Positions 4,299-49,925 of a stretch of DNA of 64,000 nt are shown here, one piece after another. The DNA is taken from positions 212,671-276,670 of the forward strand of contig NZ_LMUV01000011.1 in assembly GCF_009765755.1 (NCBI RefSeq), read 5' to 3'. Made by a program: the position numbers and the translations under genes. Source of the stretch: Rhodanobacter sp. L36. Lineage in GTDB: Bacteria; Pseudomonadota; Gammaproteobacteria; Xanthomonadales; Rhodanobacteraceae. Position 1 is the first letter of the stretch; each line of letters opens with the position of its first letter. The notes under the pieces are model-generated. The model did not search any database, had not been told where the DNA came from, and saw only the letters and a list, made by a program, of their open reading frames with translations.

Positions 4299-6662
4299 TC
4301 ACGGCGCAATCGCCGACATCGAAGGTGGCGCGTCGTGCGGATCGGAGCCCCACGTCTTGCTCGGCTCCGGCCCCATCGTGAGTACCAGCGTCGCGCCATT
4401 CTCGATATCGGCATGGCTGAACCACGGTTTGGTCCACGGCTTGCCGTTGAGCGTGGCGGACTGGATGTACTTGTTCCGCTCCGAGTTGTTGCGCGCATCG
4501 ATTTCGAAAACCTTGCCATTGCCCATCTGCAAGCGAACGCGATCGAAGATCGGGCTGCCGATGACGTAATCGGGCGTGGAGGGATCAACCGGATAGAAAC
4601 CCATGGCGCTCAGCGCATACCACGATGACGTGGAGCCCTGATCGTCCATGCCGGGATAGCCGTAGCCGGTGACATCGCTGCCGTAGAGGTCGGCGAGGAT
4701 GCGACGCGTCAGTGCCTGCGTCTTCCACGGCTGGCCGCTCCACGCATAGAGATACGCCGCCTGCTGATCGGGCTGATTGCCCTGCACGTATTGCCCGATC
4801 ACGCCGGTGCAGTCGCGGCAGATGCCCTTCGGCGCATACGGCGTGGAGAAGAACGTGTCGAGCTTGGCGTTGAACGCATCGCGACCGCCGAGCAGATTCA
4901 TCAGGCCCTGCACGTCATGCGGTACAAGCCATAGCGTGGACCAACCCGAGCCTTCCTTCGACATGAAGTTGTAGTAAGGCTCAGCCGGATCGAAGGGCGA
5001 TATCCACTTGCCGTCTTCGGTGCGGCCGCGCATGAAACCGACCGACGGATCGAACACGTTGCGGTAGTTCGTTGCGCGACGCATGAACATTTGTGCATCG
5101 TCGGTCTTGCCGAGTCGACGCGCGACATCGGCTAGCGCGTGGTCGTCCCATGCGTATTCGAGCGTGGTGGCGACGCCGGCTTTTCCGGCAGCGTAGGGCG
5201 GGCTCGGATTGCCCGGCGGAATGATGTCGGAGATCCAGCCGTTCTTCATGTATTCGGCGAGATAACCGCGCGGCCCCTTCGGATCGGTGGCGTTCTTGCG
5301 CAGCGATTCGTACGCGGCGGCGTAATCGAACGTGATGCCGCGTTGCATGGCGCCGTCGTAGAGGAATACCGCGTGGTCGCCGTGGAACGAGGTGTTCATG
5401 TAGCCGCGGTCGTGCGCCATGTCCAGTTCGGACTGCATGATGTCGCGGACGACTTCGGGCTCAAGCAACATCAATAAGGTGATCTGGTTGCGGCCGGTAT
5501 CCCAAAACGGCACGGGCGTGTAGCGGTCGTAGCTGACGACTTGCACCTGACCATGCATATCGGTGAATTTCTGGCCCTTGCGCGCGATCAACCGCGGGCT
5601 GGCGAAGGAGTGATACAGCGTGGAGTAGAACAACATGCGCTGCTTCGGCGTGCCGCCGGTCACTTCCACACGGTCGAACAGTTTCGCCCAGGCCGCGCGC
5701 GCCTCGTCGTGCACGCGATCGAAGTCGAAGGCGTGGCCTTCGGCATTCAGTCGCTGGTCCGCTTCTTCGACGCTGTGGCCGTGGGCGATGCGCACTACCA
5801 CTTGCTCGCCGGCTTGCGTGTCGAAGGTGACGTAGGCACCGGCGTAATGGCCGGAAACCGTGCGACGGTCGGCCTGCACGTCTTCGGTACCAAGCCCTCG
5901 ATTTTTTTCGTCCTCGTTGGCGTGGAAGGTGCCGAAGCGCGCAAACGGGCGGGAGAACTCGGCCACGAAATAAGCGCCATCCGTATCGCGCTCGCCGCGC
6001 GTGCCTTCAGCCATGCCACGGATGGTGTGGTCGCCGATCACTTCCACGTCGCCACCGGCGTGACGCAAATTGACCACGACGTTCGAGCGATGGCTTGCCG
6101 GGAAAGTGAATCGCATCAGGCTCGACCACTGCGCCGCCGTGAGTTCGGCGCGCGTGTGGAAAGTCGCGAGGTCGACCGCGTAATAGCCGGGCGATGCCTT
6201 CTCGCTCATCTTGTCGTAGTACGACGGCGCGTAGTCCGGCGGCATGTTCCAGTCGCCGACCACCGGCATGATCATCGGCGCGGCGCGCGCGCCATACGTC
6301 GAGCCGCCACCAGTGAAGCCGATCATGGTGGGGCGCGCGTAGCCATAGGAAACCGCCACACCGGTGGGATAGCTGAGGTCGGCGTTGACGTTGACTGGTG
6401 CCGCTTCGGTCGAACTTTGCGGCAGGCTCGCGCCCGGCGATGTCATGCCCGAATACAGCGGCTCGCCGGGCGGCGGCGCATTGCCGATCAACTCTTTTCG
6501 ATCGAGCGGCGCGGTGCCGACCAGCGGGTTGGCTTCATCGACGGCCGGGTAGGAGTGAGCGTGTTTGTTGTCCTTGGCGTGTCCTGCGCCGAGTGTTCCA
6601 AGCGCGAAAATCGACAACACGATGACGAGAGCACGGGGGAGGCGTGCCTTGGACGAATTCAT
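4299..6662 (-). CDS. Secreted GH92 exo-alpha-mannosidase
   Basis: A 787-residue glycoside hydrolase family 92 enzyme. Family members are calcium-dependent exo-alpha-mannosidases that trim N-glycans and yeast mannan. A signal peptide covers about 1-29. The N-terminal beta-sandwich and C-terminal alpha/alpha barrel are complete. The likely catalytic acid is E570 in KEGSGW, and D673-D674 in GMDDQG match the conserved aspartates that place the base. The common GNEP motif reads GNQPDQQ here, which may reflect linkage preference. The ATG at 6662 has CAGGAA upstream and is followed by a signal sequence; the open frame extends only 14 codons further. It lies between the receptor gene and GH76 in one operon, suggesting outer-chain release of mannose before backbone cleavage. 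Confidence 0.93.
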   Translation of the reverse strand: MNSSKARLPRALVIVLSIFALGTLGAGHAKDNKHAHSYPAVDEANPLVGTAPLDRKELIGNAPPPGEPLYSGMTSPGASLPQSSTEAAPVNVNADLSYPTGVAVSYGYARPTMIGFTGGGSTYGARAAPMIMPVVGDWNMPPDYAPSYYDKMSEKASPGYYAVDLATFHTRAELTAAQWSSLMRFTFPASHRSNVVVNLRHAGGDVEVIGDHTIRGMAEGTRGERDTDGAYFVAEFSRPFARFGTFHANEDEKNRGLGTEDVQADRRTVSGHYAGAYVTFDTQAGEQVVVRIAHGHSVEEADQRLNAEGHAFDFDRVHDEARAAWAKLFDRVEVTGGTPKQRMLFYSTLYHSFASPRLIARKGQKFTDMHGQVQVVSYDRYTPVPFWDTGRNQITLLMLLEPEVVRDIMQSELDMAHDRGYMNTSFHGDHAVFLYDGAMQRGITFDYAAAYESLRKNATDPKGPRGYLAEYMKNGWISDIIPPGNPSPPYAAGKAGVATTLEYAWDDHALADVARRLGKTDDAQMFMRRATNYRNVFDPSVGFMRGRTEDGKWISPFDPAEPYYNFMSKEGSGWSTLWLVPHDVQGLMNLLGGRDAFNAKLDTFFSTPYAPKGICRDCTGVIGQYVQGNQPDQQAAYLYAWSGQPWKTQALTRRILADLYGSDVTGYGYPGMDDQGSTSSWYALSAMGFYPVDPSTPDYVIGSPIFDRVRLQMGNGKVFEIDARNNSERNKYIQSATLNGKPWTKPWFSHADIENGATLVLTMGPEPSKTWGSDPHDAPPSMSAIAP

Positions 6663-6705
6663 GATGTATTCCTGCGACGGAGTGGGATGCATGCGTTGTT
6701 GCAAC

Positions 6706-6736
6706 GACGAGGTCGGGTGAAAAACCCGACCTCGTC
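6706..6736 (-). promoter_or_regulatory. Strong hairpin between receptor and GH92 genes
   Basis: Perfect 13-bp inverted repeat (6706-6718 pairing with 6724-6736) around a 5-nt loop, directly after the receptor stop codon and 43 bp before the GH92 start. No T-tract follows on the minus strand, so it looks less like a full terminator than like a 3' stabiliser, processing site or partial attenuator that lets receptor mRNA exceed glycosidase mRNA. The pairing is seen directly; the role is inferred. Confidence 0.7.
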
Positions 6737-6746
6737 CGTTCCTTGC

Positions 6747-9700
6747 TCAGTCGCCATCACCGAACTTGTAGGTCACACCCACGTAGTACTGACGTCCGGC
6801 GTATTCGAGCGAGTACAAACGCGCGCGGGTGTCGTCGCCCAGATACTCGTGCGGCGTCGACTTGGTCAGGTTGATGATCGACGCGGTCAGCATCAGGTGC
6901 TTGTTGAACTCGTAATCGCCGTTCAGATCGATCTGGTGGTATGGCTGCGAATAAATCGGCAGACCCGACGACAAGCCCTGCATGGTGCGACCGGTCCAAT
7001 TGTCGCTGGCGCGCAGCAACAGTCCGTTCTTTTCGTAGAACAGCGACACGTTGGCCGCGTATTTGGCGCTGCCGATCAGTTCGGATTTGCCGACCAGCGT
7101 GTCCCCCAGCGACACCGGGGTTTCGTTGGTCTTGTTGAGCGTGTAATTGGCGATGTAGCCAAAGCCCGCATCCCACGTGTGCTGCGCGTAGAGCTCGATG
7201 CCCTTGGATTCGCCCGAACGACCGTTGGCGTTGGTGCTGTACTGCATGAAGTTCTGCGAGGTGCCGCCCACATCCACGTTGATGTTGTCGACGGTGACCG
7301 GTACGACGAAGTTTTTGACTTCCTTCTTGAACAGATCCAGGCCGATGACGGAGTGGGGCCCGTAGTACCACTCGCCCGCCAGATCGAACTGGGTGGCTGT
7401 GAATGGTTGCAGATCTGCATTGGCGCCACTGCCGTACCAGCCCGGAAGCGGTGCACCGAACTGCTTGCGGTCGTTGTAGTAAGCCTGCGTATCGTTGGTC
7501 AGGCTGCCCAGTTGGGCCAGATCGGTGTAGTTGGCGCGGGCCATCGCTTGCGAACCGGCGGCGCGTACTACGAAGTCGTTTGCCAGCGTCCACGCGATGT
7601 TGAAGCTCGGCAGGAACTTGTTGTATCGCTTGCTGGTGGAGGCGTTGGTAAAGGACTGCACCACCGCTTGTTCCTGCGGCAGATACTGGAAATCACCTGG
7701 CGCGCAGGCACCGCCGGCGACGTTCTTGCCAGTGGCCGGGCAGATCAGGATGTTGCCGCCGGCGTCGTGGTAGTACACCGCATTGTTGGTGGTGATCTCG
7801 TCGGCGACGGTGAGGTTCTGCTTGGTGCTGACGAAGCGCAGACCCACATTGCCGCGCAGCGTGCCGGTGTCGAAGTTCGCCTGCACATACGCTGCGGAAA
7901 TCTTTTCCTGGATCGACGACTTGTCTTCGGGGTGGTTGAAGAGCACTCGGTCGTAGGTCGAGTTGAGATGGTCGTAGTAGGCCGGGAAATTGATTGCCGG
8001 GAAGGTGCTGTCGTTGTATGCCTCGGTATTGCCGTCAAGCGAATTCGCCTCGAGGAAACCTGCCGGCAACTGACCGGCATTCGGATCGCAGGTCTGGAAC
8101 TGCGATGTCGTGCCCTTGCAGTACCAGCGCATCTCGTTGTTCTGCTGTTCGGCGTTGTTGTCGCGGAACTTGGCACCAAACTGCAGCGATTGAATCCAGC
8201 TGTTGTCGAAGGCCCACGTGAAATCCGCTTGGGCAAAGTTCTGCGAGGTTGAGGTGTTGACCATGTTGGAGCCGGTCGAACCAAGATCCACCTGACCCGC
8301 GCCGGCCAGCATGTTCTGCAGCACATTCGGCGAGGCGGTGATGGTCGGCTTGCCGTCCAGCGTCCACTCGGCGCCGTTGCTGCCATCCACCCACTGGCCG
8401 TTGACGAAGTTGCGCGGCTTGGCCGCCATGTTCAGTTCAATCGACGGGCCACCCGTCGCCCACGTGCGACCGACGTTGAACGTGCCACTGAGAGCGCCGC
8501 CGTTGTCCCATTCGCCTTCGAGGTTGATCGTCTGCGAGGTGGCCTTTTCAACGGAGTAGTTGCCGGTGACCCACGGGATTTCCGTGGAGCAGACATCGAC
8601 CGGCTGGCGTTGCGCGCCGGTGCTGGGGTTGGTGGTCGCATTGCAGCCTTGACCCGCGGGCGGAAGCACGTAGTTCGCGCCGGTGACAACGGTGTGCGAT
8701 GGATCGAACGTCAAACCGTTCGGCGCGAGCAGGCGACCTTGCTGATCGGTGAAGTCACTGTTGCTCGGCAAGCCCCATTCCGGAACCTCCAGCGTGTTGG
8801 TGATCTGCGTTTGCTGACGCTCGAAGCGGAAGTAGTTACCGGTCATCAGGAAATGATCGGTGGGCTTGAACTGCATGGTGGCCTGCAGGCCCTGCGTCTT
8901 CAAATCCAGCTGATTGCGGCTGGTAGAAAACTGCTGTGGCATCCAGTAGCCCGAGTAGCTGTTGCCGGCCTGATCGACCACGCCGCCACCCGGCCACAGC
9001 GCGAGATTGGGCGCCACGTCGGCACCATACGGCTGGCCCTTCGTGTCCGTTGGTTGATGGGTACACGTGGAGTAATCGGTGCAGTTGTTGTCCCACCAGT
9101 GCCAGCTCGACGCGTTGGACGTGTAGTCGATATCCCGGCGCTTCTGGTACGAACCTGCGACGAGGAAGCCGAGGGTCTGGTCCTTGTTTTTCCACGACCA
9201 CAACGCCGACACCTGCGGACTGATCTTGCCGCTGTTGTCCGATCCCGCACCGTTGACGGAGATGAAGCCGTCGTTCGCCTTCATCTCCAGCGGGCGACGC
9301 GTGCGCAGGTCCACATTGCCGCCGATACCGCCTTCGTCCAGCCGCGCTTCAAGGCTCTTGTAGAGCTTGATGTCCGAAAACATGTTGGCCGGCATCATCG
9401 TGTAGTTGAACGAACGCGTGAGGCCCGCGGAGGTATCGGCCGAGGCGACGTAATTGCCGTTCAACTCCGTCAAGGTCAGCTCGGGCGACAGGCCGCGGAT
9501 GCTGACCGTCTTGCCTTCACCGGATTCGCGCGTGATGACCACGCCAGGCACATGCGCGAGCGCGTCGGCAATGTTCTTGGCAGGGAACTGGGCGATGTTC
9601 TGCGCGTTGATCACCTCGACGATGGAATTGGCGTCGCGCTTGTCCTGCACGTTCTGGTCGATCGACTGGCGATAGCTGGTGACGACGACAGCCTGAAGGT

Positions 9701-40952: not shown

Positions 40953-41092
40953 GACGGACTCCTGATGATGTGATGAGGCAGCTTACTCAATGCGTCGTGC
41001 AGAACGCGTGGGCGCAAGAACTCGTGGACAACTGGCGCAACCCTCAAGCGCAGTAAATAATGCGTGCTCCGCCACGTCGCGAGCGCGCACCG

Positions 41093-41905
41093 ATGAATGC
41101 AGAACGGCCAACCGGAAGTCTGGTCAACGTGGGGCTCGGCATGACGCTCGGGTCGCATATCAGTCCGCTATCGCGCAGCCATATCGAACAAGCGGATGTG
41201 GTGTTTGCAAACCTTTCCGATGGCATTGTCGAGCTGTGGCTGCAGCAGATGAATGCGGACGTGCGAAGCCTGCAACCGCTTTATCAGGAAGGTAAGTCGC
41301 GCATGCAGACTTACTGGCAGATGGTGGAAACCATCATGGCCGAAGTGCGCGCGGGCAAGCGCGTCTGCGGAGCTTTCTATGGGCATCCGGGTGTGTTTGC
41401 GTGGGCGCCACACAAGACCATCGAAATGGCGCGCAGCGAAGGTTTCGAGGCCCACATGGAGCCCGGCATCTCGGCTGAGGATTGTCTGTATGCCGATCTC
41501 GGCATCGATCCGGGCAACTTCGGTTGTCAGCATTTCGAGGCGAGCCAGTTGCTGTTCTACCAGCGCCGCATCGATCCGACCGCTTATCTGATCCTGTGGC
41601 AGGTCGGCCTGGTCGGCGACCAGTCGCTGACCCGGTTCTCGACCGGGCCGGCCTATCGTGAGTTGCTGGTGGAAGTGCTCGCGCGCGAGTACCCGCTGAC
41701 GCACGAAGTGATCATCTACCGTTGCGCCACGTTGCCCATCCAGCAGCCGCGCATGGAGCGGATCACCCTTGGCGACCTGCCCAAAGCCGATATCGGCATG
41801 CCCGATACGGTGGTGGTTCCGCCCGTCCGCGCACTCCAGCCGGACACCGTGATGCGGGCGCGACTCGCCGAACTCGACCTCGCGGCTGCCAACGACGCCG
41901 GCTGA
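41093..41905 (+). CDS. Borosin-type peptide backbone N-methyltransferase
   Basis: A 270-residue stand-alone methyltransferase of the tetrapyrrole-methylase-like class III fold that matches the bacterial split-borosin enzyme SonM and the methyltransferase half of fungal OphMA. The start GSLVNVGLGMTLGSHISPLSRSHIEQADVVF, YGHPGVF (96-102), PGISAEDCLYADLGIDPG (124-141) and LILWQVGLVGDQSLT are nearly diagnostic. Y64, R70, Y74 and Y96 keep the same spacing as the catalytic Tyr66, Arg72, Tyr76 and Tyr98 of OphMA (recalled from the literature). It should move methyl groups from SAM to backbone amides of the peptide encoded 229 bp downstream. ATG codons at 41060 and 41093 are possible; the shorter is used because similarity begins there. 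Confidence 0.93.
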   Translation: MNAERPTGSLVNVGLGMTLGSHISPLSRSHIEQADVVFANLSDGIVELWLQQMNADVRSLQPLYQEGKSRMQTYWQMVETIMAEVRAGKRVCGAFYGHPGVFAWAPHKTIEMARSEGFEAHMEPGISAEDCLYADLGIDPGNFGCQHFEASQLLFYQRRIDPTAYLILWQVGLVGDQSLTRFSTGPAYRELLVEVLAREYPLTHEVIIYRCATLPIQQPRMERITLGDLPKADIGMPDTVVVPPVRALQPDTVMRARLAELDLAAANDAG

Positions 41906-41926
41906 AGAGGTCAATCAGACGTCCGT

Positions 41927-41948
41927 ACGCCGGTATGCGGGCGTTTTT
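41927..41948 (+). terminator. Weak hairpin-plus-T-tract after the methyltransferase
   Basis: Short stem ACGCC/GGCGT with an eight-base loop followed by a run of T, 22 bases after the stop codon. The stem is only five pairs, so it may be a partial attenuator that lets some transcripts continue into the precursor gene. Confidence 0.35.
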
Positions 41949-42133
41949 GCACGCCGCAGCTCCCTGGAAAGGAGAACTGCAGCACGCCGCCGCATGAGCG
42001 CCAGTGCTACGTGGCGGGGCCACACTTAAGATGGAACTTCAAGTCTGCCCTCTTGGGCGGCTTGAACGCGGGCATCTGTTTCATCACGAAGCAGACCCGA
42101 CATCCAAACCCTGCCCCCTACTGGAGAATTCAC

Positions 42134-42400
42134 ATGTCCAACATCATCAACTTCCTGGAAATGATCGGCCAGAACGCCAACCTGCGGAACGCTTCGCGCA
42201 GCGACATGCTGGCCACCATGACCGCGATGCAGATCGCCCCTGAACTGCAGGAAGCCCTTCTTTCGAAGAATCCGCAACAGCTCGAAACCGCGCTCGGCGC
42301 CAGCAACGTCTGCTGCATGATGCTTCCCGCCACGGTCTGCTGCATGATGCTTCCGGGCATGAACGACGACACGGCGTTCCACCAGGAGTTGTGTGCCTGA
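42134..42400 (+). CDS. Split borosin precursor peptide with duplicated core
   Basis: An 88-residue peptide encoded 229 bp after the methyltransferase. The N-terminal part (about 1-56) is a predicted small helical leader resembling the borosin-binding domain (INFLEMIGQNANLRNASRS, then SDMLATMTAMQIAPELQEALL). Its C-terminus carries two copies of VCCMMLP (59-65 and 68-74), then GMNDDTAF and a last Cys (87). This is the likely substrate region for N-methylation. The ATG follows GGAG at seven bases. It is transcribed in the same direction as the enzyme, with no other gene between. The pairing with the enzyme is strong; the exact modification sites are not known. Confidence 0.88.
   Translation: MSNIINFLEMIGQNANLRNASRSDMLATMTAMQIAPELQEALLSKNPQQLETALGASNVCCMMLPATVCCMMLPGMNDDTAFHQELCA
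42308..42355 (+). repeat. Duplicated core segment of the precursor
   Basis: Two direct repeats of 21 bp each (42308-42328 and 42335-42355), identical over 20 bases and separated by 6 bp, encode VCCMMLP twice with a nine-residue period. The near identity points to a recent tandem duplication inside the core-coding part. Confidence 0.85.
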
Positions 42401-42632: not shown

Positions 42633-44414
42633 ATGCACGCATTGAGGTTCCGGATTGTGTGGCTAACGGTTTGTCTCCTGCTTGGATCATTCGGTCCAAG
42701 CATGGCCCTGTGCGATACGGCAACAAAACCGAAGGTCGCGGACCTGCTGGTACAGGCGGACAACTCAAAGACGTCCGACCATGATCGGTTCCTTCGGCTG
42801 CTGAATGAATTGCACGCCGACTCGGCCGACTTGTCGACCGAACAGAAGTTTTATCTGGACTATTTGCAGGCTTGGCAGAACGGGTATCAGGGCGATTATC
42901 AGGCGTCGACCTCGCTCATCGATGCATTGATCGAGAACTCGGGAGATACCATCCTGCGATTCCGCGGCGGCCTGCTTCTGGTGAACACGCTGGCAGAGCG
43001 ATCACGCTTCGACGAAGCCTTCAAGCAGCTGAATCTGCTGCTTGGCGAGCTGCCGGAAATCAGCGATCCGGATGTCCGTGCGCAGGCCTTCACCACAGCG
43101 GCCTATCTTTATGGCGAGGCCGGGCAATATGGTCTGGCGTCCAGTTATGCCGACAAGTTGTTGAAGGATCATCCGGCAGCCGACGAAATTTCCTGCAAGA
43201 TAACCTTCGTCAAACTCGGCGCGCTCTACCGGGATGGCAAGTTCGCCGGCATCGGACAACAGTTTCAGAACGGCATCGACCTTTGTTTGAAAGTAGGCGA
43301 CACGCTCTATGCCAATGGCATCCGCTTTTTCGTGGCGAGCCTCGATGTACAGCAAAAAAAGTCGGGGCAGGCGATTCAGCTTCTGACGGATCACGACGCC
43401 GAAGTGCGGCGCAGCGGTTATCAATGGCAGATTTCACAGTTCGATGCGTTGTTGTCCAAGGCGTATCTGGACACGGGCCATATCGAGCAGGCCCGCGAGT
43501 CGGCATTGCGGGTGATCGCGCAGAGCGTGCAGGATCAGTACGCCGAGTCGCTGAGCATGGCCTACCAGGTTCTCTACATGATCGAGAAAGGCGACGGCAA
43601 TCCAGCCGCTGCGCTGGCGTACCACGAGCAATACATGAAGGCGAGCCAGCGCTATCAGGATGCGCTGAGTTCGCGCGTGCTGGCTTATCAGATCGTGCAG
43701 CAGGAACTGCTCTCGAAAAAGTTGCAGATCGATACGTTGAGCAAGCAGAACCAGATCCTGCAGTTGCAGCAGGCGTTCGGACGAAAGAAGGGCGAAGCCA
43801 GCCGGCTGTACATCGTGCTGCTGCTGATGGTGGTGGCGTTCATTGCGTTCTGGGCTTATCGCATCAAGCGATCCCAATTGCGCTTCATGGGTCTTGCCCG
43901 CCGCGATGGACTCACCGGAATTTTCAATCGCCAGCACTTCGTCACCGCCTCCGAACAGCAACTGCAGGCATGCCGGAAATCCGCGCGCGAAGTCTGTCTG
44001 GTGCTGATCGACCTGGATCACTTCAAGAGCATCAACGATACGCACGGCCATTCCGTAGGCGATCGCGTGCTTCGCCGCACCGTCGCCACCTGCCAGGCGC
44101 ATTTGCGCACGTCGGATATCTTTGGCCGTCTGGGCGGCGAAGAGTTCGGCATCGTGCTGCCGGATTGCCCATTGGAAAAGGCACTCGGCCGTGTCGAGTT
44201 GATGCGCCTGGCGATCGCTTCGGTCACAGCCGACGATGATGTTTCCGGCATATGCATTTCCGCCAGTTTCGGTGTCGCAAGCAGCAGCAACTCGGGCTAC
44301 GAATTGCGCCAGTTGTTGATTCATGCCGACGAAGCGTTGTATGGCGCCAAGCGCGACGGGCGCAATCGCGTCAACGTCAGCCTTGCAACGCATCAGCCCT
44401 CGCGCGCCGTCTGA
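42633..44414 (+). CDS. TPR-containing diguanylate cyclase
   Basis: A 593-residue regulator. A signal peptide or signal anchor (about 1-25, IVWLTVCLLLGSFGPSMALC) is followed by periplasmic TPR-like helical repeats (about 40-360), a membrane helix (about 395-415, YIVLLLMVVAFIAFWAY) and a cytosolic GGDEF domain (from about 428). The active site is GGEEF, and RTSD five residues before it is the inhibitory I-site. It should make c-di-GMP in response to something sensed outside. Starts at 42552 and 42597 are in frame but less likely. It is 232 bp downstream of the precursor gene; a connection to the borosin is not shown. Confidence 0.9.
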   Translation: MHALRFRIVWLTVCLLLGSFGPSMALCDTATKPKVADLLVQADNSKTSDHDRFLRLLNELHADSADLSTEQKFYLDYLQAWQNGYQGDYQASTSLIDALIENSGDTILRFRGGLLLVNTLAERSRFDEAFKQLNLLLGELPEISDPDVRAQAFTTAAYLYGEAGQYGLASSYADKLLKDHPAADEISCKITFVKLGALYRDGKFAGIGQQFQNGIDLCLKVGDTLYANGIRFFVASLDVQQKKSGQAIQLLTDHDAEVRRSGYQWQISQFDALLSKAYLDTGHIEQARESALRVIAQSVQDQYAESLSMAYQVLYMIEKGDGNPAAALAYHEQYMKASQRYQDALSSRVLAYQIVQQELLSKKLQIDTLSKQNQILQLQQAFGRKKGEASRLYIVLLLMVVAFIAFWAYRIKRSQLRFMGLARRDGLTGIFNRQHFVTASEQQLQACRKSAREVCLVLIDLDHFKSINDTHGHSVGDRVLRRTVATCQAHLRTSDIFGRLGGEEFGIVLPDCPLEKALGRVELMRLAIASVTADDDVSGICISASFGVASSSNSGYELRQLLIHADEALYGAKRDGRNRVNVSLATHQPSRAV

Positions 44415-44420
44415 GCGCGT

Positions 44421-47174
<2,754 letters not shown>

Positions 47175-47329
47175 GGTGAGCATTCCCCAATGGCCGCACG
47201 CAGCCGATCGCGCCACTGTGCCAGACCCTCGTCCGACACGCGTAGCCCATCAGTTGGGTAGGGATTTTCGATCCCGCGCTCGTGGCGAGGGCGCGGTCGA
47301 TCCATCCGTGGCTCGCCTCCCGATGCCGT

Positions 47330-49630
47330 CTATTTTTTCAGCGCGGCCGTGAGCTGGTCGAGTTGTGCACGATAACGATCGATCACGTCGGCGGTGACCT
47401 GGGTGTAGCGCGCCAGTTCGTCCCAGCGACGGCCTTCGATCGCTTCGCGCACGCCCGGCACGGTTTTCACGTCATAGCCCGTGAGCATGCCCGGGGCATA
47501 AATCATGTGCTTGAACCACGCGCGACCGGGCAGGCCGTCGGGGTCGCCGAGCGCCTGTTCCATCGCGGCCATGCGGCGGTTCACGTCACGCTTCTGCGCC
47601 GATGACAGATTGAAGCTGGTCTGCGCGCGACCTGCATATGCTGCTTCGAATGCCTGCGCGCTCCTGTCGAGCTTCCTGCTCGCTGCGTCGAGTGCGGTGA
47701 GGTCGATCGACGGTACGTCGGATTCGCGTGCCGGCGGTGCGATCGCATGTTGCGGGTCGGCATCGAGTTCGAAAGCGTGGCTGTCGAGCAGTTCGTGCTG
47801 CTCGGCGGTCGCCTTGCGCGTGGCGTCGACCAGCTTGTGCAGTTCGTCGACGTAGCGATCCAGCTGCTGGCTGAAATCGCCGAAGCGCATCGGCAGCACA
47901 TCGGCATCGGCACTGCGCAGCACGATATGCCCGGCGACCTTGGCCAGCGTCGTGCCGTAGACGAAGGTCGGATCACCGAAGCGGATGTAGTGATCGAACG
48001 AGTCGTAGCGCGAGTGGTAGATGCCGGCATTGTCGTCTTCGCCACCGAAGCCGAGGTCCAGCGAAGCGATGCCGAGATGTTCCAAAAATGCGCTGAAGTC
48101 GGAGCCCGAACCGAGTGCCTCGATCGGCAGATCACCGCCCTCCGCGGCAAGCTTGGCGTCCATCTTCGCTTCGGGGCTTGCGCCGCCGGCAGCTTCGACG
48201 CGCATGTGCGCGCGCAGGCGTTCGCGCACGCTCACATGCGTTTCCGGATCGATCACGCCGTCGGCGACTTCGTTCACCAGATGCTGCAGCGAATGGCTCC
48301 CACCGGCGCCGAGAATGCCGCGACCGTTGGTATCGGAGTTGAGATAAAGCACGGCCTTCTGCTGCAGCTCGGCGGCATGTGTCTCGGCCCACTCGGTGGA
48401 ACCGAGCAGACCCGGCTCCTCGCCGTCCCAGCTTGCGTAGACCAGCGTGCGCTGCGGCCGCCAGCCTTGCTTGACGAGTCCGCCGATCGCCTTGGCTTCG
48501 GCCATCAGCGCGATGTTTCCCGCGAGCGGATCCCATGCGCCAAACACCCAGCCGTCGTGATGATTGCCACGCACGATCCACTGATCCGGCGCGGTCGAGC
48601 CTTTCATCACGGCGATCACGTCGTAGACCGGTTTCTGCCCCCAGTCCGACGCCACCGTCATGTGCACTTTCGCGGTGCTCGGGCCGATGTGATACGTCAG
48701 CGGCAACGCACCGCGCCAGCCTTGCGGCGCCACCGGACCGGTCAGTGATTGCAGCAACGGCGTGGCATCGCCATAGGAAATCGGCAGCACCGGAATTTTC
48801 AGCAGCGTCGTTGCATCTTTCAACGCGAGACGCTTCGCACCCGGCGTGGAACCGATGCCGGGCGTGAGCGGATCGCCGGGGTATACCTGCATGTCGGCGA
48901 CCGAACCACGCTGCACGCCTTGCGCCGGACGCCAGCCGCCCTTGGGATACACATCGCCCTGCGCGTAGCCGTCTTCATGCGGGTCGGAATAGATCAGGCA
49001 GCCGATCGCACCATGCTGCTGCGCGAGTTTGGGTTTCAAGCCGCGCCAGCCACCGCCGTAACGGGTAAGCACGATCTTGCCGCGCACGTCGATGCCGCGA
49101 CGGGCGAGCTCCTTGTAGTCGTCGGGCATGCCGTAGTTGGCGTAGACGAGCGTCGCCGATACATCGCCATCGCCGCCGTAGATGTTGTACGGCGGCAGCG
49201 CGCCGTCGCGGATCGCCGAGGTCGCATCGCCCGCCACTTCGGGCTCGTTCAACAGGGCCATATAAGGTTTCGGTCCGAGCAGTTCCAGCGCTACTTTCTT
49301 CGGTGTCGGGTACAGCACGTCGAAGGTTTCGATGTGCGCGTCCCAACCCCATTCGCGGAACTTCGCCAGCATGAATTCGGCGTTCGCCTTGTCGTGCGGC
49401 GAGCCGACCTGGTTCGGTTCGGACGACATCTGTTTCAGCCATGCGCGCAGGTCGGCGGGATCGAGCTGCGCATCGAACCGCTGTTCCAGGCTTCGCTGAG
49501 CGGCTGCATTGGCGGCGGAAAATCCCAGCATGCCGTGATCGTCATGCGTGGCTGTCGATGCAGCGGCCGCACCGAACGTGGTCGCCACGCTGCCGATCAG
49601 CAGCCAGGACCGGATTATGGTTTGCCTCAT
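47330..49630 (-). CDS. Secreted M28 glutamate-carboxypeptidase-like enzyme
   Basis: A 766-residue metallopeptidase related to PSMA / glutamate carboxypeptidase II. A signal peptide covers about 1-25. The PA domain (about 130-270) interrupts the peptidase domain; zinc ligands are seen in GNHHDGWVFGAWDP (His and Asp), DGEEPGLLG (Glu-Glu), NSDTNG (Asp) and YHSRYDSFDHY (His). The C-terminal part is the transferrin-receptor-like dimerisation domain. GGGGAG precedes the ATG at 49630. Like its M14 neighbour it should degrade peptides outside the cytoplasm. Confidence 0.93.
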   Translation of the reverse strand: MRQTIIRSWLLIGSVATTFGAAAASTATHDDHGMLGFSAANAAAQRSLEQRFDAQLDPADLRAWLKQMSSEPNQVGSPHDKANAEFMLAKFREWGWDAHIETFDVLYPTPKKVALELLGPKPYMALLNEPEVAGDATSAIRDGALPPYNIYGGDGDVSATLVYANYGMPDDYKELARRGIDVRGKIVLTRYGGGWRGLKPKLAQQHGAIGCLIYSDPHEDGYAQGDVYPKGGWRPAQGVQRGSVADMQVYPGDPLTPGIGSTPGAKRLALKDATTLLKIPVLPISYGDATPLLQSLTGPVAPQGWRGALPLTYHIGPSTAKVHMTVASDWGQKPVYDVIAVMKGSTAPDQWIVRGNHHDGWVFGAWDPLAGNIALMAEAKAIGGLVKQGWRPQRTLVYASWDGEEPGLLGSTEWAETHAAELQQKAVLYLNSDTNGRGILGAGGSHSLQHLVNEVADGVIDPETHVSVRERLRAHMRVEAAGGASPEAKMDAKLAAEGGDLPIEALGSGSDFSAFLEHLGIASLDLGFGGEDDNAGIYHSRYDSFDHYIRFGDPTFVYGTTLAKVAGHIVLRSADADVLPMRFGDFSQQLDRYVDELHKLVDATRKATAEQHELLDSHAFELDADPQHAIAPPARESDVPSIDLTALDAASRKLDRSAQAFEAAYAGRAQTSFNLSSAQKRDVNRRMAAMEQALGDPDGLPGRAWFKHMIYAPGMLTGYDVKTVPGVREAIEGRRWDELARYTQVTADVIDRYRAQLDQLTAALKK

Positions 49631-49925
49631 GCGGTGCTCCCCTTGATGGATCATTGACCGATGACGCGCCGCAGCGGCGCGCATGGCAAGTTATACCCGC
49701 AGCTCTGGAATCGTGCCCGGGCAGTGGCTGCTCTCGGCGCGGGAATGCAGGTTGCGCGACCTGTCTTGCCGTTTCTGCATCGCCGATTCGACCAGACACC
49801 GACCTTGAAAATCCGCGGTGCATTGCAGAAGAAAATCGACCGTGATGTACGTGCCAAGAGACACAGCACAAACGCCGGCCATTGGGCGCACAATTCATGC
49901 TCCTTTCCCCAACATGGAGTACGAC

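Follow-up and report, generated by a model that had tools for sequence, protein, structure and literature searches.

What does a split borosin do in a Rhodanobacter, and which genes belong with it? The question is raised by a locus of Rhodanobacter sp. L36 (genome of 3.98 Mb) that was proposed to encode a stand-alone borosin α-N-methyltransferase (MT) together with the peptide that it modifies. By "the window" we mean the whole stretch of 64,000 nucleotides that was analyzed, which lies on contig 4 of this genome. The original prediction placed two open reading frames on its + strand, and both are present as described: a SonM-like MT of 270 aa (41093-41905, +), for which an alternative in-frame ATG at 41060 gives 281 aa, and a precursor peptide of 88 aa (42134-42400, +). 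They are separated by a gap of 228 nt, and a plausible ribosome-binding site (GGAGAA) can be seen by eye 5′ of the precursor ORF. A gene for a TPR-GGDEF membrane protein of 593 aa (42633-44414, +) starts 232 bp downstream of the precursor. We have compared these genes with known structures, with loci of related bacteria and with genome assemblies, and we discuss what the third gene may contribute.

The Methyltransferase

The MT was compared with the sequences of the PDB using phmmer. The match to SonM (7ltc) has E = 2.5e-78, and the fungal OphMA-type proteins follow at E = 2.3e-50 to 2e-45 (about 1e-46 for OphMA itself), while the sole tetrapyrrole methylase among the matches listed gives E = 1.8e-3. 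Pfam assigns the protein at the superfamily level only (TP_methylase, E = 1.6e-17). This assignment is what one would expect if the locus were a tetrapyrrole-type methylase beside a chance small ORF, a grouping that the original prediction had itself singled out for checking. We regard that explanation as refuted, given the difference between the E values for SonM and for the tetrapyrrole methylase, the NCBIfam tetrapyrrole models, whose scores on the MT are far under their cut-offs, and the presence of a precursor in nearly all related loci (see below). The comparisons support placing the MT with SonM and OphMA and not with the tetrapyrrole methylases.

The aligned stretch of the MT and SonM contains 110 identities in 204 columns. 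The borosin signature of Tyr, Arg, Tyr and Tyr that had been proposed from the sequence is borne out by this alignment, in which Tyr64, Arg70, Tyr74 and Tyr96 of the MT correspond to Tyr58, Arg67, Tyr71 and Tyr93 of SonM. At each of these positions the residue is the same in 149 of 150 aligned MT sequences, that of the window included. Passages of the SonM study assign these residues to active-site organization and to the binding of substrate and cofactor, and doubt a direct catalytic role (PMC8429565). F99, E146 and W166 of SonM are also kept. Gln178, a core contact in SonM, is not: the window MT has Arg181, and across the 150 sequences this position is Arg in 112, Lys in 13 and Gln in 7. We have not counted Gln178 as defining for type IV split borosins, and no source consulted defines it so.

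The Precursor Peptide

The leader of the precursor (residues 1-54; 42134-42295, +) was described as helical. An AlphaFold2 model agrees, with five predicted helices at residues 3-13, 15-18, 22-31, 36-43 and 47-54 (mean pLDDT 72). The model has no secondary structure after residue 54, and pLDDT falls below 60 from about residue 61. Core and tail (residues 55-88, GASNVCCMMLPATVCCMMLPGMNDDTAFHQELCA; 42296-42397, +) follow the predicted bundle directly. Foldseek places SonA in the best three of 350,542 chains (TM 0.66-0.68 by target, E = 2-3). Compared alone with the PDB, the precursor finds SonA only at E = 1.1; a profile of 93 sequences, consisting of the window peptide and its relatives, matches SonA chains at E = 1.1e-6 to 8.8e-6, the next match having E = 1.6. 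Profile and predicted fold together support the assignment of the leader as a SonA-like borosin-binding domain. No signal-peptide-like start was seen by eye in the precursor.

As had been noted, Cys and Met are abundant in the core. The motif VCCMMLP occurs there twice owing to a direct repeat in the DNA (42308-42359, +). The two 25-nt copies, 42308-42332 and 42335-42359, are 92% alike and are exact over the first 20 nt. The doubled motif is found in looser form in most of ten aligned Rhodanobacter-type orthologs, e.g., NVCCLLVPAQVRCLLVPGINDED; two of them (L015 and L016) are without the second copy.

Where might the core be methylated? A peptide proline nitrogen has no hydrogen to replace, and Pro65 is present in 75 of the 93 precursor sequences. 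The SonA leader is a five-helix bundle of residues 1-53, and the methylated residues are Leu63 and Ile65, according to the parts of the SonM-SonA study that describe them (PMC8429565). In a gapless register these two positions correspond to Met63 and Pro65 of the window peptide. Since proline lacks a replaceable hydrogen, the first N-methylation is predicted at or near Met63 (codon 42320-42322).

The pair is very likely a split borosin, and we assign this Rhodanobacter locus to type IV. As in SonM-SonA of Shewanella oneidensis MR-1 (type IV; described in passages of PMC8429565, PDB 7ltc), MT and precursor are separate, the four signature residues are the same, and the core stands directly after a five-helix leader. 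The cores differ: the window has VCCMMLPATVCCMMLPGMNDD..., with the doubled Cys/Met motif, in place of SYQSYLVIS in SonA, and Pro65 stands at the position of the methylated Ile65. The fused borosins typified by OphMA (omphalotin) share the MT family; in them, leader domain and core form part of the enzyme polypeptide (in passages of the review PMC11285071), whereas the window encodes them in a separate gene. The same review, in the parts that treat classification, credits Imani 2022 and Cho 2022 with the finding that type IV loci occur widely among bacteria and with the definition of types V to X.

Conservation of the Pair

The second check proposed for the locus was whether the precursor is conserved beside the MT in related genomes. 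It is. Of 110 loci, 106 (including 78 of the 80 contig loci) have a precursor-profile match on the strand of the MT and no more than 3 kb from it; the profile was built from the same loci as were counted. The four loci lacking a match (L022, L029, L043 and L088) are all cut by contig ends. The 110 loci are numbered L001-L110. L001 is that of the window itself, and the sequences of 11 among L001-L030 are contained unchanged in L031-L110. Another profile count, 103 of 110, omits matches in stop-to-stop frames of at least 420 aa. With the window peptide as the sole query, 77 of the 110 loci show a precursor within 3 kb at E = 0.01, and 98 show a match anywhere in the locus at E = 10.

Two precursors are encoded in many loci (L005, L007, L008, L017, L018, L038 and others). 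In several of these, one peptide has the C terminus ...QCA or ...RRA while its partner carries an acidic tail, e.g., CCMLAPAKEDEDDDTEESPS. Of these two kinds the window encodes the first only, and no second precursor was found in it.

Among 60 genomes (that of strain L36 and 59 relatives), an MT match at E = 1e-3 is present in 46, one of which, G054 (E = 4.9e-4), is a weak match that is tetrapyrrole-type as judged by E value. Members of the genus other than strain L36 have an MT in 34 cases out of 35. An MT was also found in 36 of 148 genomes of another order of the class, and in 4 of 19 genomes of the order to which G344 belongs.

The genome of strain L36 contains a second, paralogous locus on contig 9 (410832-413139). 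Its MT is 73% identical to that of the window, and it has its own TPR-GGDEF gene and a precursor of another core type, KPMQLPHTQGPGHEEEE..., confirmed by profile at E = 5e-31. Searching the genome with the window peptide finds only the peptide itself and the precursor of this paralog (E = 0.05).

The TPR-GGDEF Protein

The protein encoded downstream of the precursor has hydrophobic segments at residues 8-26 (N-terminal) and 393-411 (a transmembrane helix). Hydropathy and the structural model place a predicted periplasmic TPR solenoid between them (residues 35-320; 42735-43592, +), and a GGDEF domain identified by Pfam follows (residues 423-579; 43899-44369, +; E = 1.1e-41). The model (mean pLDDT 91.9) consists of an α-solenoid at 35-320, a long helix and the GGDEF domain. 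The active site reads GGEEF and has RTSD five residues ahead, which we take to be an I-site. We refer to this protein and its relatives as sensors for brevity.

GGDEF is present in all 70 aligned sensors. TPR_14 is weak in the window protein (E = 0.004, below cut-off); it is found in 43 of the 70 sequences, and TPR families are found in many. Cys188 and Cys218 are invariant in the 70 sensors and lie on neighboring helices of the solenoid, where they may form a disulfide. A simple hydropathy rule finds both segments in 46 of the 70 sensors, the start codons of which were chosen by script, and the transmembrane helix alone in 22; the N-terminal segment is thus not secure in all of them. All 50 Foldseek matches listed for the sensor are GGDEF-containing structures, among which no solved counterpart of the solenoid could be named. 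The arrangement of hydrophobic N-terminus, solenoid, transmembrane helix and output domain is that of TPR-sensor diguanylate cyclases and TPR hybrid histidine kinases.

Linkage of the Sensor to the Pair

Each neighbor in the window was compared with 76 loci of at least 6 kb. The TPR-GGDEF gene alone is common to most, being present in 72 of the 76 (a count that includes L043, where the GGDEF match is not adjacent), and the next-best neighbor, DUF3014, is found in 13. Unsupervised clustering of the ORFs in the 80 contig loci gave a similar picture: the sensor is found in 76, and the largest cluster overlapping neither MT, precursor nor sensor is found in 17. A stricter rule, which asks for the sensor part on the strand of the MT and no farther than 6 kb away, still gives 75 of the 80, with GGDEF detected in the same ORF in 69; L123 and the locus of G224 lie outside all sets of this count. 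In three of the five misses the locus ends within 336 bases of the MT. The other two (L095 and L108) are real misses, having an MT and a precursor and no sensor within about 6 kb downstream. The description of the locus as minimal is therefore not supported, as the TPR-GGDEF protein belongs to the conserved unit.

As a control for chance association, the sensor domain was searched for in the whole genome of strain L36. At E = 0.001 it is matched only twice, directly beside each of the two MTs. Across the 60 genomes, MT and sensor are present in the same 45 and both are lacking in 15, which include one member of the genus. A sensor lies within 6 kb of 61 of 66 MT matches, these being 68 less those of G054 and G032 (E = 7.7e-4), which were dropped as tetrapyrrole-type by E value alone. 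Conversely, an MT lies near 72 of the 84 sensor matches; the 12 without a same-strand MT nearby include some at contig ends. Three such loci (L200-L202) carry orphan TPR-GGDEF genes belonging to this sensor family, with the MT elsewhere in the genome and with neither an MT nor a detectable precursor nearby.

The distances between MTs and those between sensors are correlated (Mantel Spearman 0.85, against a maximum of 0.20 in 500 permutations; n = 71 pairs), and shared species history contributes to this correlation. In five genomes having two loci, the sensor is on average nearer to that of the same locus type elsewhere than to that of its sister locus. MT and sensor have thus been present or absent jointly, and duplicated jointly.

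We also examined 39 of 40 regions from two other orders; the 40 cover 37 of 53 and 3 of 4 MT matches, respectively. The sensor is on the same strand in 33 of the 39. Its output domain is GGDEF in 24 of these 33 and a histidine kinase in 8, and in one (L173) GGDEF is in a separate ORF. In L156 the sensor is divergent. Four loci (L182, L183, L187 and L193) have a neighboring kinase with two or three hydrophobic segments and no detected TPR part, and L184 has neither sensor nor kinase. One further match from each of the two orders gave L125, with MT, precursor and TPR-kinase, and L124, with both a TPR-GGDEF and a TPR-kinase gene. The order of genes is precursor, sensor, MT in L174, L176, L181, L189 and L190, where sensor and MT overlap by 4 nt when called from the first start codon. 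The five additional genomes were all sampled, with one of two matches taken for G881. Six loci with MTs 65%-77% identical to SonM (L170-L173, L175 and L178) have a TPR sensor gene with GGDEF adjoining the pair, these being in two ORFs in L173.

At greater distance the sensor is not universal. Among class-level MTs that are 32%-50% identical, five of seven loci (L126-L130) are without a sensor, as is L195. With the sensor missing at most of the more distant MTs examined, the linkage applies to the window's own order and the two other orders sampled, and within that range the conserved three-gene unit of MT, precursor and TPR sensor is well supported.

The distant loci have features of their own. 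L195 encodes (4840-8364, -) a protein of 1174 aa with an N-terminal borosin-type MT and a long C-terminal part containing a transmembrane-like stretch and an acidic tail. The distant MTs of L128 (3504-7173), L129 (4730-9722) and L130 (628-5831) have a short ORF upstream, and an MFS transporter adjoins the MT in L128 and L129. These three loci also encode related proteins of about 450 aa (28%-51% mutual identity; the three were scanned and have no Pfam match). They are perhaps a different borosin unit.

Does the conserved adjacency mean that the peptide acts through the sensor? The pair could be an ordinary split borosin whose product acts elsewhere, as an antibiotic, a metallophore or otherwise, while the sensor reads some other cue and times production. 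Some MTs have no sensor, the Cys/Met-rich core is such as a metal ligand might have, and co-expression of MT and precursor sufficed for a methylated peptide in the passages describing the SonM work (PMC8429565). A controller of production, however, need not adjoin the pair, nor be duplicated with it in so many genomes. Moreover, the output varies between GGDEF and histidine kinase on a constant sensor part, which ties the sensor and not the output to the peptide. We consider action elsewhere to be unlikely on balance. That the peptide is the ligand of the TPR sensor is in our view the best single explanation, one that we would put at around even strength or a little below.

Other Neighbors and the Intergenic Gap

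The original prediction saw no protease, transporter or further enzyme beside the pair. As regards a further enzyme this was incorrect, the putative diguanylate cyclase being the next gene downstream. Peptidase and transporter genes also lie nearby, and the absence of such partners holds in the sense that they rarely recur with the unit. Two large adjoining metallopeptidases, M14 and M28 with a TFR dimerization domain (44421-49684, -), are convergent with the TPR-GGDEF gene. We rejected them as maturation genes, M14 being found in 7 of 76 loci, all titled Rhodanobacter, and M28 in none of the 76. M14 lies downstream of the unit in its seven loci. An ABC-2 transporter, encoded from about 35.3 kb in the neighborhood of the pair, was likewise rejected as part of the unit, its ATPase and its permease being found in 5 of 76 loci each; the matches are in Rhodanobacter records and one MAG (L039), apart from a weak ATPase match (27%) in L106. 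A role in anti-phage defense was also rejected, none of the three proteins having a match to a PADLOC model.

Neither an exporter nor a leader peptidase recurs with the unit in the loci compared, most of which hold a flank of about 6 kb or less, so that farther neighbors can be missed. This lack of maturation partners would suit another explanation, in which the methylated precursor is neither cut nor exported and regulates, inside the cell, the cytoplasmic part of the signaling protein or the MT. A leader predicted as a folded domain, and the acidic tail that is common after the core among relatives, also fit such a role. Yet the constant part of the partner is the predicted periplasmic solenoid and not the cytoplasmic output. 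An intracellular regulator therefore seems to us improbable, more so than action elsewhere, and we return below to a ligand of the TPR sensor as the preferred reading.

The predicted fold of the gap between MT and precursor (41906-42133) is more stable than those of 200 shuffled sequences (z = -3.1). Known RNA families were searched for in the region 35-50 kb, with none at gathering scores. Between 40.9 and 42.7 kb a scan for σ70 promoters found none, and two terminator-like sites were found compared with 1.2 expected from shuffles. TAAGAT is present at 42027-42032 in the gap, and similar words can be seen by eye in the gaps of several relatives. Such words leave room for a promoter within the gap, and the precursor may have its own.

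Discussion

The split borosin pair is of a known kind. Its receptor-like neighbor could be new or could already be on record. The legend to Fig. 1 of PMC11395268, on borosin architectures, defines a "GGDEF-sequence-containing domain," and some link between borosins and GGDEF is thus already in print; that legend and the passages seen of the paper mention neither a TPR sensor nor a histidine-kinase swap. Literature searches that lay outside the split-borosin surveys found no paper linking a borosin with Rhodanobacter or with c-di-GMP, and none joining a split borosin with tetratricopeptide. Borosin and histidine kinase were found together only in unrelated passages of one paper. Searches for a RiPP precursor peptide with a diguanylate cyclase and tetratricopeptide found none, nor did those for a peptide ligand of a periplasmic tetratricopeptide diguanylate cyclase.

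How might the three genes work together? Adjacency by itself gives no direction of information flow. The position of the pair beside a membrane signaling protein in many relatives points to a possible signaling role of the modified peptide. A dimer of the MT would bind the helical leader of the precursor and N-methylate backbone amides of the core. Met63, shortly ahead of Pro65, is the most likely first site, and the second copy of VCCMMLP may be methylated as well. The modified peptide, or a piece released from it by cleavage, would then reach the periplasm and act on the TPR sensor of the neighboring membrane protein by binding to it. This input would set the synthesis of c-di-GMP by the cytoplasmic GGDEF domain; where a relative has a TPR-histidine kinase instead, a phosphorelay would respond to the same input.

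For the window, we lean slightly toward this three-gene reading, in which an N-methylated peptide feeds a TPR receptor that sets c-di-GMP synthesis. Its extension to the split borosins of the clade as a form of peptide signaling, with a ribosomal peptide stabilized by backbone N-methylation as the ligand, a periplasmic TPR receptor and an interchangeable output, is more tentative, and we would put it somewhat short of even.

The receptor-like gene accompanies the pair, is present or lacking jointly with the enzyme, and keeps its sensor while its output changes; it provides a specific target for testing. If the proposal is correct, a RiPP would drive c-di-GMP signaling, and one should seek a signal rather than an antibiotic, both in Rhodanobacter and in the bacteria whose enzymes are closest to SonM. 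It would give a function to bacterial borosins, including close relatives of SonM and SonA.
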